A DNA stretch of 64,000 nt from Pseudomonadota bacterium (GTDB lineage: Bacteria; Desulfobacterota; Desulfarculia; Desulfarculales; Desulfarculaceae). Numbering within the stretch: the first letter of the stretch is position 1; every line of letters starts with the position of its first letter. The stretch spans positions 1 through 64,000 of the forward strand of contig JAHJPG010000110.1 in NCBI GenBank assembly GCA_018819925.1. The letters run 5' to 3'. The notes beneath the pieces were generated by a model, which was not told where the DNA came from, did not search any database, and saw only the letters and a list, made by a program, of their open reading frames with translations. The translations under genes were made by a program, and so were the position numbers. Below, one piece after another: positions 6,216-63,466 of this stretch.

Positions 6216-6305
6216 GTAGCCCTTCTGTTTCCGGCACAAACCATTCCAGAACATCAGACACGATTAACTTTGCGTCCGTAGGCCGTGTCTTGTTCAGCCA
6301 CCAGC

Positions 6306-6418
6306 GGCACAGCCAGGCGACGGCAGACAAGGCGTCCGGCGAGTGAAGGCCGCAGGCGTAGTGCTAACTACGTCGAGGCTTGAGCGATGCCGGCAACGCA
6401 GGATTCCGTTGCCTGGCG
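6306..6418. repeat. Structured intergenic repeat module, copy A1
   Basis: This is the first of two tandem units. It begins GGCACAGCCAGGC and shares an identical stretch of about 38 bases with unit A2 around the central hairpin CGTAGT-GCTA-ACTACG (6357-6372). The next stem outward is CCGGC/GCCGG. The outer right arm is degenerate (ends GTTGCCTGGC). Together with A2 it fills the 336-base gap between the bio operon and trkH; bases 6216-6305 of that gap show nothing recognisable. Confidence 0.85.
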
Positions 6419-6429
6419 AAGCCGCTTTA

Positions 6430-6547
6430 GGCACAGCCAGGCGGCGGCAGACAAGGCATTCGGCGAGCGAAAGCCGCAGGCGTAGTGCTAACTACGTCGA
6501 GGCTTGAGCGCAGCCGATAACGCCGTATGCCGCCGTCTGGCTGCGCC
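6430..6547. repeat. Structured intergenic repeat module, copy A2
   Basis: This is the second tandem unit, about 124 bases after the first. The ends form a long imperfect inverted repeat: GGCACAGCCAGGCGGCGGCA against TGCCGCCGTCTGGCTGCGCC. Inner stems are TCGGC/GCCGA, AAGCC/GGCTT and CGTAGT/ACTACG, all perfectly paired although their bases differ from other copies. It ends 5 bases from the trkH stop codon, so it could also act at the end of that transcript. Confidence 0.88.
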
Positions 6548-6551
6548 GAGC

Positions 6552-8003
6552 CTAGTCTCGCCAGAATTCGGGTAGGAACAGCACCAACACGGTGTAGACC
6601 TCCAGGCGGCCCACGATCATGGCCAAAGAGAGCAGCCACTTGGCCGCCAGGGGCAGGTGGGCGTAGTTGGCCGCCGGGCCCACCGAACCCAGGCCGGGGC
6701 CGATGTTGCCCAAACAAGCGATGGAGGCGGTGAAAGAGGTCACCAGGTCCAGGCCCATGCCCGACAGCAGTAGGCCCACCACCACGAAGCAGGCCAGATA
6801 GGCGCCCATGAATCCCCACACCGAGGCCACGATGCTCCGGTCCACGGTGTGATGCTCCAAGCGCACCGGGGCCACCACCCGGGGGTGCACTAGGCGGCGA
6901 AGCTCGGCCTTGATCTGCTTGGTCACCACCATCACCCGCATCACTTTGGGCCCGCCGCCGGTGGAGCCGGCCGAGCCGCCCACGAACATAAGAACCACCA
7001 GGGCGGCCAGGGCCGCCGGAGGCCACAGATCGTAATCCGCCGTGGCGAATCCGGTGGTGGTGAGGATGGTGGCGCTCTGGAAGGCGGCCAGGCGGATGGC
7101 ATCCCATGCCCCCTTGCCGGACACCAGGAACAGGGCCAGGGCCCCCAGCAGGGCAGCGCCCAGCCAGAGGTACATGTAGGTGCGCCACTCTTCGTTGCGC
7201 CACCAGGCGCTCCAGCGCCGCTGCCAGATCACCTGGAAGTGCAGGGTGAAGTTCATGCCCGCCAGGAGCATGAAGATGGTGATGATCACGTCAATGTAGC
7301 CGCTGCCAAACCCGGCGATGGAGGCGTCCTTGGTGGAGAAGCCCCCGGTGGCCATGGTGGCGAAGGCTTGGCAGGTGGCGTCGAACCAATCCATGCCCCC
7401 CAACATCAAAAGAACCACCTCGGCGGCGGTGATGGCCGCGTAGACCTTCCATAGCACGCTGGCGGTGTCGGTGATGCGCGGGGCCAGGCGGTCCGGGGTG
7501 GGGCTGGGCACCTCGGCCTTGAACAGCTGCATGCCGCCCACCCCCACGAAAGGCAGGATGGCCACGGACAACACGATGAAGCCCATGCCCCCCAACCAAT
7601 GGGTGAGCGCCCGCCAGAAGAGAACCCCCTTGGAGCAGGCCTCCACGCTGGTTAGCACGCTGGCCCCGGTGGTGGTGAAACCGCTCACCGACTCGAACAG
7701 GGCGTCCCCGAAACTGGCGAACTCTCCGCTGAGGTAGAAGGGCAGCCCGCCCAAAAGCCCGGCCACGACCCATGATACGCCCACGATGGCCATGCCCTGG
7801 CGGTGGTTCAGCTCCCGGCTGGTCTTGTCGCGGAAAAGCCAGAAGAGCACCGCGCCCAAGAGCAGGCTGACAAAGGCCCCTCCGGCAAAGGCGTGCCAGC
7901 CGGCCTCGCCATAGAGCAAGGCCACGCCCATGGGCAGGAGCATGAACAGCCCCACGCCCATGCACAGCACCCCCAACAGGGATAGGACGAAAGCCAGGCC
8001 CAA
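6552..8003 (-). CDS. trkH: Potassium uptake protein TrkH (membrane subunit)
   Basis: This 483-residue polytopic membrane protein has the repeated M1-P-M2 pore architecture. Four filter-like P-loops are visible: TTTGAS, ATGGFST, TTTGFAT and GNIGPG, each with the glycine that lines the K+ filter. The start is a TTG with GGGAGGG about 9 bases upstream. It lies 30 bases after trkA and is presumably co-expressed. The partner TrkA gates transport through NAD(H)/ATP binding. KtrB-type proteins are close relatives, but the following two-domain TrkA favours Trk. Confidence 0.93.
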   Translation of the reverse strand: MGLAFVLSLLGVLCMGVGLFMLLPMGVALLYGEAGWHAFAGGAFVSLLLGAVLFWLFRDKTSRELNHRQGMAIVGVSWVVAGLLGGLPFYLSGEFASFGDALFESVSGFTTTGASVLTSVEACSKGVLFWRALTHWLGGMGFIVLSVAILPFVGVGGMQLFKAEVPSPTPDRLAPRITDTASVLWKVYAAITAAEVVLLMLGGMDWFDATCQAFATMATGGFSTKDASIAGFGSGYIDVIITIFMLLAGMNFTLHFQVIWQRRWSAWWRNEEWRTYMYLWLGAALLGALALFLVSGKGAWDAIRLAAFQSATILTTTGFATADYDLWPPAALAALVVLMFVGGSAGSTGGGPKVMRVMVVTKQIKAELRRLVHPRVVAPVRLEHHTVDRSIVASVWGFMGAYLACFVVVGLLLSGMGLDLVTSFTASIACLGNIGPGLGSVGPAANYAHLPLAAKWLLSLAMIVGRLEVYTVLVLFLPEFWRD

Positions 8004-13285: not shown

Positions 13286-13291
13286 GGCCTT

Positions 13292-13550
13292 AGCCCGAAT
13301 ATCCCATGGAGGCCGCGCGTCCTGCTGCGCCAGCCGCCGGCATACCGCGTTGCCAGCTGCGCTCGGTCCTTGACGTAGCCCTGGCTACGCCAGCGGACCT
13401 CGCTTGCCGGACGCCTTGTCTGCCGGTGCCTGGCTGTGCAGGGCCCGAATGCAAACCGCACCCCGCTATAGCTAACTGTTTTTTCATGAGGACCGCTTCA
13501 ATTTAAGTTCGTTGCTCACTGCCGCCCAACCCCCATGAAATATCCGGGCT
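13292..13550 (-). repeat. MITE-like element, copy B (inverted orientation)
   Basis: This is a 259-bp element bounded by inverted repeats AGCCCGGATATTTCATGGGG (inward from 13550) and AGCCCGAATATCCCATGGAGG (inward from 13292), with TA on both outer sides (13291-13292 and 13550-13551). The inner module (13325-13439) has stems CCGGC/GCTGG, GGTCC/GGACC and CGTAGCC/GGCTACG. The remaining third carries a conserved TCATGAAAAAA stretch shared with copies D and E. It lies between two glycan operons, 6 bases from each neighbouring coding region. Confidence 0.88.
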
Positions 13551-13556
13551 ATCCCC

Positions 13557-38418: not shown

Positions 38419-38447
38419 CTCTTTAACGACTCGGCAAGGCCCTGGGG

Positions 38448-38560
38448 CTGGCTGGGCGCGGCTGACTAGGCGTCCGGCGAGCGCGTTCCGGAGGCGTAGG
38501 TAATCCTACGTGGAGGAACAAGCGATGCCGGCAACAACGTCAGGCGCGTCCAGACGGACC
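38448..38560. repeat. Structured intergenic repeat module, divergent copy C
   Basis: It matches the other modules in the core (AGGCGTCCGGCGAGCG, GCGATGCCGGCAAC) but differs elsewhere. The central hairpin is CGTAGG-TAAT-CCTACG, where both stem positions differ from CGTAGT/ACTACG and CGTAGC/GCTACG, so pairing is preserved. The CCGGC/GCCGG stem is also intact. The outer arms are degenerate. It abuts the stop codon of the transaldolase-family gene. Confidence 0.7.
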
Positions 38561-39243
38561 TAGCATAATTCGCACTTTTTGGCGTCGTCGAGGAACATGC
38601 GCACGGTCTCTTTGCTGTACGGATGCACCAACATGCCGCCCAAGATGTCCGGGGTAACGGTGACGATGTGAGCCCCGGCGTGCAGCCAGGTGATCACGTT
38701 GTTGATCTCGCGCACCGAGCCGATGATGATCTGGCTCTCCAGGCCCTGCATCTCAAGCAGCTCGCGCAGGCGGGTTATCTCGTCGGTGGCGTCGTAGCCC
38801 ATGTTGTTCACCCGGCCGCCGAACAGCGAGACGTAGGTGGCGCCGGCCAAGGCGGCCAAAAGGCACTGCTGGCCGCTCATCATGGCCGTGGCGTTGACCC
38901 GCACGTCGTACTTGGTCTCCAGGGCGTGGATAACCTCGATGTTGTCGGTTTCGCCTTCGGGGCCGTGGATGGTGATCTTCACGTTGATGTTCTCGGCCAA
39001 GGCCGCGAACTCCCGGGCCTGGTCGATCATCTGCACCGGGTCATTGCTGGTCACTTCCAGCGACAGGGGCAGGGGCGCGATCATGGCCGCTATTTCCTTG
39101 GCCCGGGCCTTCATGCCGCTGGCTCCGCCGGTGACCCCGTCCTTGAGCAGGATGGTGGGATTGGTGGTGACCCCGCGGATCACGCCCCAACGCAAAAACT
39201 TCTCCACCTGCTCGATCTTGCCGCTGTCCAGAAAAATGGCCAT
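38560..39243 (-). CDS. Transaldolase / fructose-6-phosphate aldolase family protein
   Basis: A TIM-barrel protein of 227 residues, the short transaldolase size. TTNPTIL (26-32) is the family's opening motif and K89 in NINVKITI is the presumed Schiff-base lysine; GGRVNNMG, GSVREINNV and ATVTPD-like (IVTVTPDIL) follow. Transaldolases interconvert sedoheptulose-7-phosphate with other sugar phosphates, and sedoheptulose-7-phosphate is the substrate of the GmhA-type isomerase encoded two genes upstream. The start lies 3 bases after the gmhB stop. I infer that it tunes the heptulose pool for this operon. Confidence 0.87.
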   Translation of the reverse strand: MAIFLDSGKIEQVEKFLRWGVIRGVTTNPTILLKDGVTGGASGMKARAKEIAAMIAPLPLSLEVTSNDPVQMIDQAREFAALAENINVKITIHGPEGETDNIEVIHALETKYDVRVNATAMMSGQQCLLAALAGATYVSLFGGRVNNMGYDATDEITRLRELLEMQGLESQIIIGSVREINNVITWLHAGAHIVTVTPDILGGMLVHPYSKETVRMFLDDAKKCELC

Positions 39244-50917: not shown

Positions 50918-50968
50918 ATTCGCCCTCGCTGTCCGGCCCGGGGGTCGCCCCAGGCGCGGGAGTTGGCC

Positions 50969-51226
50969 AGCCCGGATATTTCATGAAGGTTGAGCGGTAA
51001 CTAACAATAAATCAGTTTTTATGCTGTCTTTATGAAAAAAGCGCCCGCCCTATCAAGATGCAGTTTTACCCGAACCCGGCACAGCCAGGCAGCGGCAGAC
51101 AAGGCGACCGGCAAGCGAGGGCCGCAGGCGTAGCCTATGCTACGTCGAGGCCCGAGCACAGCCGGCAACGCGGTATGCCGGTGACTGGCGCAGCCGGACG
51201 CACTGCCTTCATGTAATATCCGGGCT
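50969..51226 (+). repeat. MITE-like element, copy D
   Basis: The element is 258 bp with terminal inverted repeats AGCCCGGATATTTCATGAAGG and CCTTCATGTAATATCCGGGCT (one mismatch in 21). The inner module (51078-51196) shows stems CCGGC/GCCGG, GGGCC/GGCCC and CGTAGC/GCTACG. Between the left end and the module lies an AT-rich stretch with TTTATGAAAAAAGCG shared with copy E. It occupies most of the 412-base gap between asnB and the next gene; the rest (51227-51267) shows nothing special. Confidence 0.9.
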
Positions 51227-51267
51227 AAGCCTAATGAAACCTGACGGTTTGTGCAACAGCCCTCGCG

Positions 51268-62777: not shown

Positions 62778-62801
62778 CCGGGTCAAGCAACTCCCGGCTC
62801 C

Positions 62802-63060
62802 AGCCCGCATATTTCATGAAGGTTGGTCGGCATCGAACAGCGATTTAATATTGATGCGATCCTTATGAAAAAAGCGTTGGCTTTATCGGGGTGCGGTTTG
62901 TAATCGGACCCGGCACAGCCAGCCGCCGCCAGACAAGGCGTCTGGCAAGCGAGGGCTGCTGGCGTAGCCAGGGCTACGTCGAGGCCCGAGCGCAGCCAGC
63001 AACACGGTATGCCGGCGGCTGGCGCAGCCGGACCCACGGCCTTCATGGAATATGCGGGCT
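62802..63060 (+). repeat. MITE-like element, copy E
   Basis: The element is 259 bp with terminal inverted repeats AGCCCGCATATTTCATGAAGG and CCTTCATGGAATATGCGGGCT (one mismatch in 21). Both ends carry GCCCGC where both ends of copy D carry GCCCGG. The inner module (about 62913-63031) has stems CTGGC/GCCAG, GGGCT/GGCCC and CGTAGCC/GGCTACG. Its right end overlaps the stop codon of the NIL-ferredoxin gene. It fills nearly the whole 300-base gap. Confidence 0.9.
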
Positions 63061-63466
63061 AAAACTGGCTTTCCATGGCCCCGTAGGAGCAGGCGGCGAT
63101 ACAGGATTCGCACATTATGCAGTGGGAGGGCTCGAAAACTATCTCACGGCTCACCGGCTCCACTGTGAGCGCGTCGGTGGGGCACACCGCGGTGCAGGCG
63201 GTGCACTGCACGCAAAGCTCACCATAGTGGCGCATCTCCTGGACCATGGGGTCCACCTGCACGCCCTGCTCCTCCAGGTATTCCAGGCCGTCCTTGAGGC
63301 TCTTGGCCGAGCCTTTCAGCTCCATGACGATGCGGCCCTGTTCCCGGGGCACCACCCTGGCCCGCAGGATGTTAACCTCCAGGTCGAAGAGGCGGATGAG
63401 ATTATTAGTGACCGGCTGCTGGATCAGCCGGGGGGGGAAGCTTAGAACGAGCTTTTTTTTGACCAT
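63059..63466 (-). CDS. NIL-domain ferredoxin (partner of DUF39 sulfurtransferase)
   Basis: The 135-residue protein has an N-terminal NIL domain (about 4-78) and two 4Fe-4S motifs: CVQCTACTAVCP (C85, 88, 91, 95) and CIMCESCIAACS (C116, 119, 122, 126). This is the layout of the MA1822-type protein that works with DUF39 in making homocysteine from aspartate semialdehyde and sulfide in anaerobes. AAAGGAG precedes the ATG. The upstream neighbour is DUF39, 28 bases away. The TAG stop uses bases at the boundary of repeat element E. Confidence 0.92.
   Translation of the reverse strand: MVKKKLVLSFPPRLIQQPVTNNLIRLFDLEVNILRARVVPREQGRIVMELKGSAKSLKDGLEYLEEQGVQVDPMVQEMRHYGELCVQCTACTAVCPTDALTVEPVSREIVFEPSHCIMCESCIAACSYGAMESQF

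Follow-up and report, generated by a model that had tools for sequence, protein, structure and literature searches.

What kind of element is the hairpin that recurs in this stretch of DNA, and why do its copies lie where they do? The window, i.e., the whole stretch of DNA analysed here, covers 64 kb of a metagenome-assembled genome of 4.03 Mb (G000, with a completeness of 96%). The original prediction had placed six copies of a hairpin module at 6306, 6430, 13325, 38448, 51078 and 62913, and all of them are present. A covariance model derived from 43 own-genome copies finds the same six; in the 64-kb window it matches exactly these modules, on their sense strand, and none other.

Conservation of the fold and the strand that carries it

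The module is about 122 nt in length and forms one long hairpin with internal loops, among which CAAGGCG/CAACGCAG, GAGCGA/GAGCGA and GCAGG/TCGAGG are conserved. Three nested stems had been read in it, and the readings of the central, next and outer stems are borne out in the sequence of the six copies. In the copy at 38448, the middle stem takes a fourth form, GTTCC/GGAAC, and the third stem of the copy at 13325 contains one G.T wobble pair. The stem that was called outer is present but is not the outermost, as 15-18 further pairs enclose it.

It had also been claimed that paired positions change together, so that the fold is kept and not the sequence. This was examined in the 43 own-genome copies, with an alignment made from sequence only and a structure predicted from the same sequences. 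Paired cells amounted to 95.2%, against 88.3 ± 0.3 after shuffling, and changes on both sides were observed in 25 of the 38 pairs (9.7 when shuffled). The covariation score was 0.259, against 0.128 ± 0.006 in the shuffled versions (0/500), and did not exceed 0.062 when the partners were slid by 1-3 columns; it is, therefore, twice that of the shuffled and four times that of the slid versions. Similarly, in 34 independent copies from Geothermobacter, aligned by fitting to the model, the score was 0.442 against 0.162 shuffled (0/500). The stem sequences of Geothermobacter differ from those of the own genome, and the fold covaries even more in this fitted alignment. The outermost pair, which lies just outside the model, covaries too (C-G in 48 copies and G-C in 32) and thus also marks the ends of the unit. 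Covariation in both lineages, which by the shuffling test lies far above the shuffled level, thus supports the claim that the module is conserved in its fold and not in its sequence. A small sample of vertically inherited copies, about 14 orthologous occupied pairs, contains both kept and broken base pairs. Single changes that keep a pair seem to be commoner in these clearly vertical copies than those that break one, and this excess hints at some selection in place.

If only the double-stranded DNA mattered, G.U and A.C would be expected to be equally common. In the sequence-only alignment, however, there are 101 G.U cells against 15 A.C (25 pairs to 3, sign test 1.4e-5), and in Geothermobacter 118 against 9, the prediction of the structure on the + strand being itself a bias towards G.U in such counts. 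Prediction on the other strand instead yields a structure with fewer pairs and with counts of 20 to 29. The consensus energy is -57.6 kcal/mol on the + strand and -25.0 kcal/mol on the other. It was further observed that the + strand folds better in 160 of 171 single copies, by a mean of 8.9 kcal/mol, and in all 34 of the 34 Geothermobacter copies, by a mean of 16.6, and CG-UG-UA intermediates are present in the Geothermobacter stems. The excess of G.U and the stronger folding thus indicate that the + strand, as RNA or as single-stranded DNA, is the one whose fold is kept. Both options offered by the original prediction, a structured RNA or a hairpin handled as single-stranded DNA, need one folding strand, and one strand does carry the fold.

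Copy number, MITE cargo and empty sites

The own genome contains about 97 copies, as counted by the covariance model with antisense echoes excluded. All of the other 7 genomes of the genus carry the module, with 29 to at least 60 copies each, and in the rest of the family searched, Desulfocarbo alone carries it (45 copies), G008, G009 and G011-G013 being close relatives that lack it. The 122-nt unit is sharp-ended and lies in unrelated flanks, and the own copies are almost all intergenic.

Within the own genome, 28 of the 97 copies are found inside a 260-bp MITE, always at the same place, 111 nt from one end and 38 nt from the other. This MITE has the inverted ends GCCCGSATATTTCATGA with TA at both sides. 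Its end pattern gives 69 matches genome-wide (control, 1), and the own genome showed no 1-3 kb pair of such ends with room for an autonomous transposon. The window contains three such MITEs. The first, with TA-flanked inverted ends (TAGCCCGGATATTTCATG..) recognised by the TIR pattern, lies at 13291..13551 on the - strand and encloses a module at 13321-13441 (-, 125.9 bits). The other two, with TIR matches at both ends, lie on the + strand at 50968..51227, with a module at 51077-51197 (+, 130.3 bits), and at 62801..63061, with a module at 62911-63031 (+, 126.4 bits). Half of the window's copies are thus MITE cargo, and the free ones lie against stop codons, always facing one way; both facts go beyond the original prediction. 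In other lineages, the core sits in MITEs with several unrelated inverted ends, mostly TA-flanked, as seen in copies from Acidobacteria, Actinomycetota, Phycisphaerae, Desulfobulbaceae and Dive96. Several different inverted-end families of TA-flanked MITEs, therefore, carry the same core hairpin. The free-standing modules differ from them, as they have no TA-flanked inverted ends, and no target duplication was found for them.

Comparison with the sister genomes revealed occupied and empty versions of the same site. At the gene end of trkH, a module is present in G000, G003, G005 and G007, whereas G004 and G006 have an empty site, with the trkH stop codon at the same place; in an empty relative, trkH has the same last residues FWRD followed by the stop. 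The copy in G003 is the same as the second of the two window copies beside trkH, though diverged, and in G002 another gene lies beside trkH and no module copy is found there. Twelve further gene ends were compared in five sisters. Some are empty, in one to four of the sisters; site L134 is so in G001, G004, G005 and G006, and site L123 in G001, G005 and G006. At L130, the same subtype is found in G004 and G005. At L117, L128 and L145, the stop codon is shared but the module beside it in the sisters belongs to another subtype, a replacement that can be a new insertion or gene conversion between copies. The exact junctions are blurred because the species with empty sites are only ~80-87% identical. 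Most gene ends are without a module, and the sister species freely lose or replace it.

Two features of individual loci were also observed. Loci L128, L062, L318, L309 and L324 have remnants of the left end of older modules immediately to the left of a full one, which looks as though the right part of the older module had given way to a newer copy at the gene end. A minority of the modules (L145, L102, L304, L323 and L155) contain an insert of ~105 nt (CCCAAGGCTTGGGCTGCCAAGG...CGACCCGCTCTGCCGCCAGCGGC) right after CAAGGCG, at one spot in the module; it has one open frame, PKAWAAKGVS..DPRCRQR.

Placement at stop codons and spread across lineages

The window has two free sites, one at the 3' end of trkH (6552) and one at that of a transaldolase gene (38560). 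At the former, a head-to-tail pair of free-standing modules is found on the + strand, the first at 6304..6425 (model match 6305-6425, 125.9 bits) and the second at 6428..6549 (6429-6549, 129.9 bits). The 3' end of the second is 2 nt off the stop codon (CTA, - strand) of trkH, which occupies 6552..8003 on the - strand (Pfam TrkH, 6.1e-81). At the latter, the right end of a diverged free-standing module (38443..38563, +, 87.1 bits) coincides with the CTAG stop of the transaldolase gene (38560-39243, -; Pfam TAL_FSA, 1.6e-35).

The same arrangement holds across the own genome. In 49 of the 69 free-standing copies, no more than 15 nt separate the 3' end from an opposite-strand stop codon, and in a few others the next module along is the one that reaches such a stop. 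Among the 59 own copies with genes called on both sides, the right end lies within 5 nt of the next gene in 37, against 3.7 expected under uniform placement between the two genes, and the neighbour is nearly always an opposite-strand stop codon. The left end is that close to its neighbour in just 2 of the 59, and the median gap is 124 nt at the left end and 3 nt at the right. A few of these distances may be off, a simple GC3 method having been used to call the genes' ends. In the sister genomes, 27 of 40 copies have the right end within 5 nt (2.6 expected, on the same assumption), and the left end does so in 0 of 40 copies of relatives. The folded strand is, thus, antisense to the abutting gene. 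Furthermore, both neighbours lie on the other strand in 17 own copies and in 21 of the 34 Geothermobacter copies, so that the folded strand is transcribed by no neighbouring gene. The abutting genes end in TAG (51), TAA (15) and TGA (11; n = 77), against a background of 158, 59 and 85 (n = 302). As this usage is near the background, what matters is the stop codon or the end of the gene and not one motif, and TAG (51/77 against 158/302) is ruled out as a target motif.

In Geothermobacter, an opposite-strand stop lies no more than 15 nt beyond the end of 14 of the 34 copies sampled, and the remainder mostly belong to head-to-tail arrays that end at such a stop. Arrays of this kind were noted at L369, L372 and L373, with a period of ~136 bp, anchored at the stop codon and extending away from the gene. 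Single copies at 0-2 nt from an opposite-strand stop are also found in Geobacter, Geomobilimonas, Syntrophus and Pseudodesulfovibrio.

The core is multicopy across the Desulfobacterota. Among the matches listed by a scan with the core pattern CAAGGCG-N18-34-GGCGTA-N3-10-TACGYCGAGG are Geobacter, Geomobilimonas, Geothermobacter, Syntrophus, Desulfofustis, Desulfatitalea, Pseudodesulfovibrio and Desulfobulbaceae, along with bins labelled Acidobacteria, Phycisphaerae (Planctomycetes), Actinomycetota and others, bins being liable to contamination or mislabelling. The own-genome model gives 88 matches in Geothermobacter hydrogeniphilus, 54 in bin Dive96, 29 in a Syntrophus bin, 18 in an Acidobacteria bin and 14 in Geobacter sp. 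AOG1, counts that may include antisense echoes. The loop letters CAAGGCG, GCAGG, TCGAGG and CAACGCAG are common to the lineages while the stems differ, some of these letters being required by the search pattern itself. The Rfam covariance models give no family match on the modules, and the apparent spread of an element without an Rfam model over several phyla suggests that annotation commonly overlooks it. An Acidobacteriota contig that carries the core hairpin (L254) also contains a strong Acido-Lenti-1 RNA (Rfam RF01687; 6210-6255, -); this RNA occupies the opposite end of the contig and apparently has no relation to the module.

The nearest counterpart in print is a family of ‘predicted short RNA elements’ with 24 members in Geobacter metallireducens, described in 2009 (PMC2700814). 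There, the family is given as intergenic and multicopy, with a central palindrome GRCGTAGCGCTGCTACGCC, and is reported also from other Geobacter and from Desulfotalea. Compared by this palindrome alone, it matches the apical helix of the module (GGCGTAG..CTACGYC), and the family is probably the same core. The main text and legends mention no stop-codon rule, strand bias, covariation or mobility (PMC2700814).

A proposed mobile element and its alternatives

Free copies that adjoin stop codons in the same way, together with relatives of the core in several phyla, argue for a large REP-like mobile repeat and not for an ordinary terminator. Such a repeat, mobile and recognised as a folded single strand, also agrees with the number of copies, their sharp ends and fixed orientation, the empty sites and the strand bias. 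On balance, we lean with about even confidence towards a non-autonomous REP-like mobile element of ~122 nt, which would be recognised as a folded single strand by a putative enzyme. Such an enzyme, which we infer together with a single-strand intermediate, would recognise the folded + strand, as single-stranded DNA or RNA, and insert the element directly past stop codons in one orientation. Insertion may sometimes occur beside earlier copies and so give rise to head-to-tail arrays, and the polarity would arise from insertion and not from later selection. It is proposed that the stems drift by compensatory change because the fold and the loop letters, rather than the stem letters, are recognised. 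In some lineages, the core may have been picked up as cargo by TA-flanked MITEs as a second way to spread. What speaks against mobility is that Y1 transposase and reverse transcriptase (PF00078) are absent from the own genome and TnpB (PF07282) from five carrier genomes, and that no event of insertion was observed; the excess of pair-keeping changes in vertical copies and the possible gene conversion weigh on the same side. A TnpB guide RNA was rejected on the same five genomes. Target-primed reverse transcription, with 5' truncation as its sign, and a retroelement or group II intron derivative were also rejected, as left-only and right-only fragments are about equally common and the host has no reverse transcriptase.

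The main rival is a structured RNA, since the strand bias and the use of G.U fit RNA as well as single-stranded DNA. Here, the + strand would be transcribed and fold at the 3' end of the gene, where it would block antisense or read-through transcription or act as an antisense RNA or RNase barrier, and selection would keep each fold. The CG-UG-UA intermediates, the internal-loop letters kept across phyla and the position fixed relative to genes suit this reading, as does the annotation of the Geobacter family with the same central palindrome as predicted short RNAs (PMC2700814). It is nevertheless rather doubtful. The strand that folds runs antisense to the gene it abuts and, in the 17 own and 21 of 34 Geothermobacter copies, lies outside the transcription of any neighbouring gene. 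Moreover, no T run follows the hairpin, no Rfam family matches, and the module is missing at most gene ends and freely lost or replaced in sisters.

An element of the mRNA 3' end appears unlikely. A hairpin past the stop would slow ribosomes or protect the mRNA, insertion being random and only the stop-adjacent copies being kept. The distance of 0-5 nt from the stop agrees with this. Ribosome stalling has been reported for E. coli REPs located up to 15 nt from a stop (PMC12306157), and in two other species REPs are found within 20 bp of gene ends (PMC3733652). However, the mRNA strand is the weaker folder, the bias of G.U over A.C lies on the other strand, and the MITE-borne copies keep the fold though they are not adjacent to stops.

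In the attC sites of integrons, too, the strand that folds is antisense to a gene whose stop it directly follows, and structure is conserved over sequence. The module shares this geometry, its folded strand being antisense to the gene and just past its stop, but an attC-like recombination site, with the folded bottom strand used by a tyrosine recombinase, is very improbable, as both boxes (RYYYAAC ... GTTRRRY, the R-box/inverse-core pair) occur in 0 of 171 copies and the abutting genes are no cassettes but resident ones, with empty sites at their orthologues.

REPs are known to lie near gene 3' ends, within 20 bp in two species diagrammed, and the GTAG and CGTC superfamilies are 20-40 nt long and head-tagged, those of CGTC, like the module, lacking a known transposase (Di Nocera et al. 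2013, PMC3733652). Like REPs and BIMEs, the module is a dispersed, extragenic, high-copy palindrome near gene 3' ends; it differs in its length of 122 nt, its lack of a head tag, its conserved internal loops, its single orientation relative to the gene and its stems rich in G.U. The classical REP/RAYT system, the option that the original prediction had named, is accordingly very improbable as well. Y1/RAYT (PF01797) is absent from the host genome G000, from the single-contig sister G005 and from Desulfocarbo G060 despite their many copies. Y1 is present in some other relatives, and no module lies beside any of the three loci checked. A GTAG/CGTC head tetranucleotide occurs within 8 nt of an end in just 3 of 171 copies. 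A diverged Y1 enzyme below the sensitivity of Pfam would rescue the REP/RAYT reading.

To return to the mobile REP-like element, a wider form of it is possible, and put forward tentatively: a cross-phylum class of mobile elements with its own mobiliser, which would move as a folded single strand (RNA or single-stranded DNA), sense the end and direction of a coding sequence and land a few bases from the stop. We know of no mechanism for a fixed orientation and a 0-5 nt stop gap across lineages with unrelated stems. A concrete and testable question is thus raised as to what recognises gene ends and inserts DNA there. The clustering of REPs near gene ends is known; the fixed orientation and the gap of 0-5 nt to the stop are what the module adds to it.
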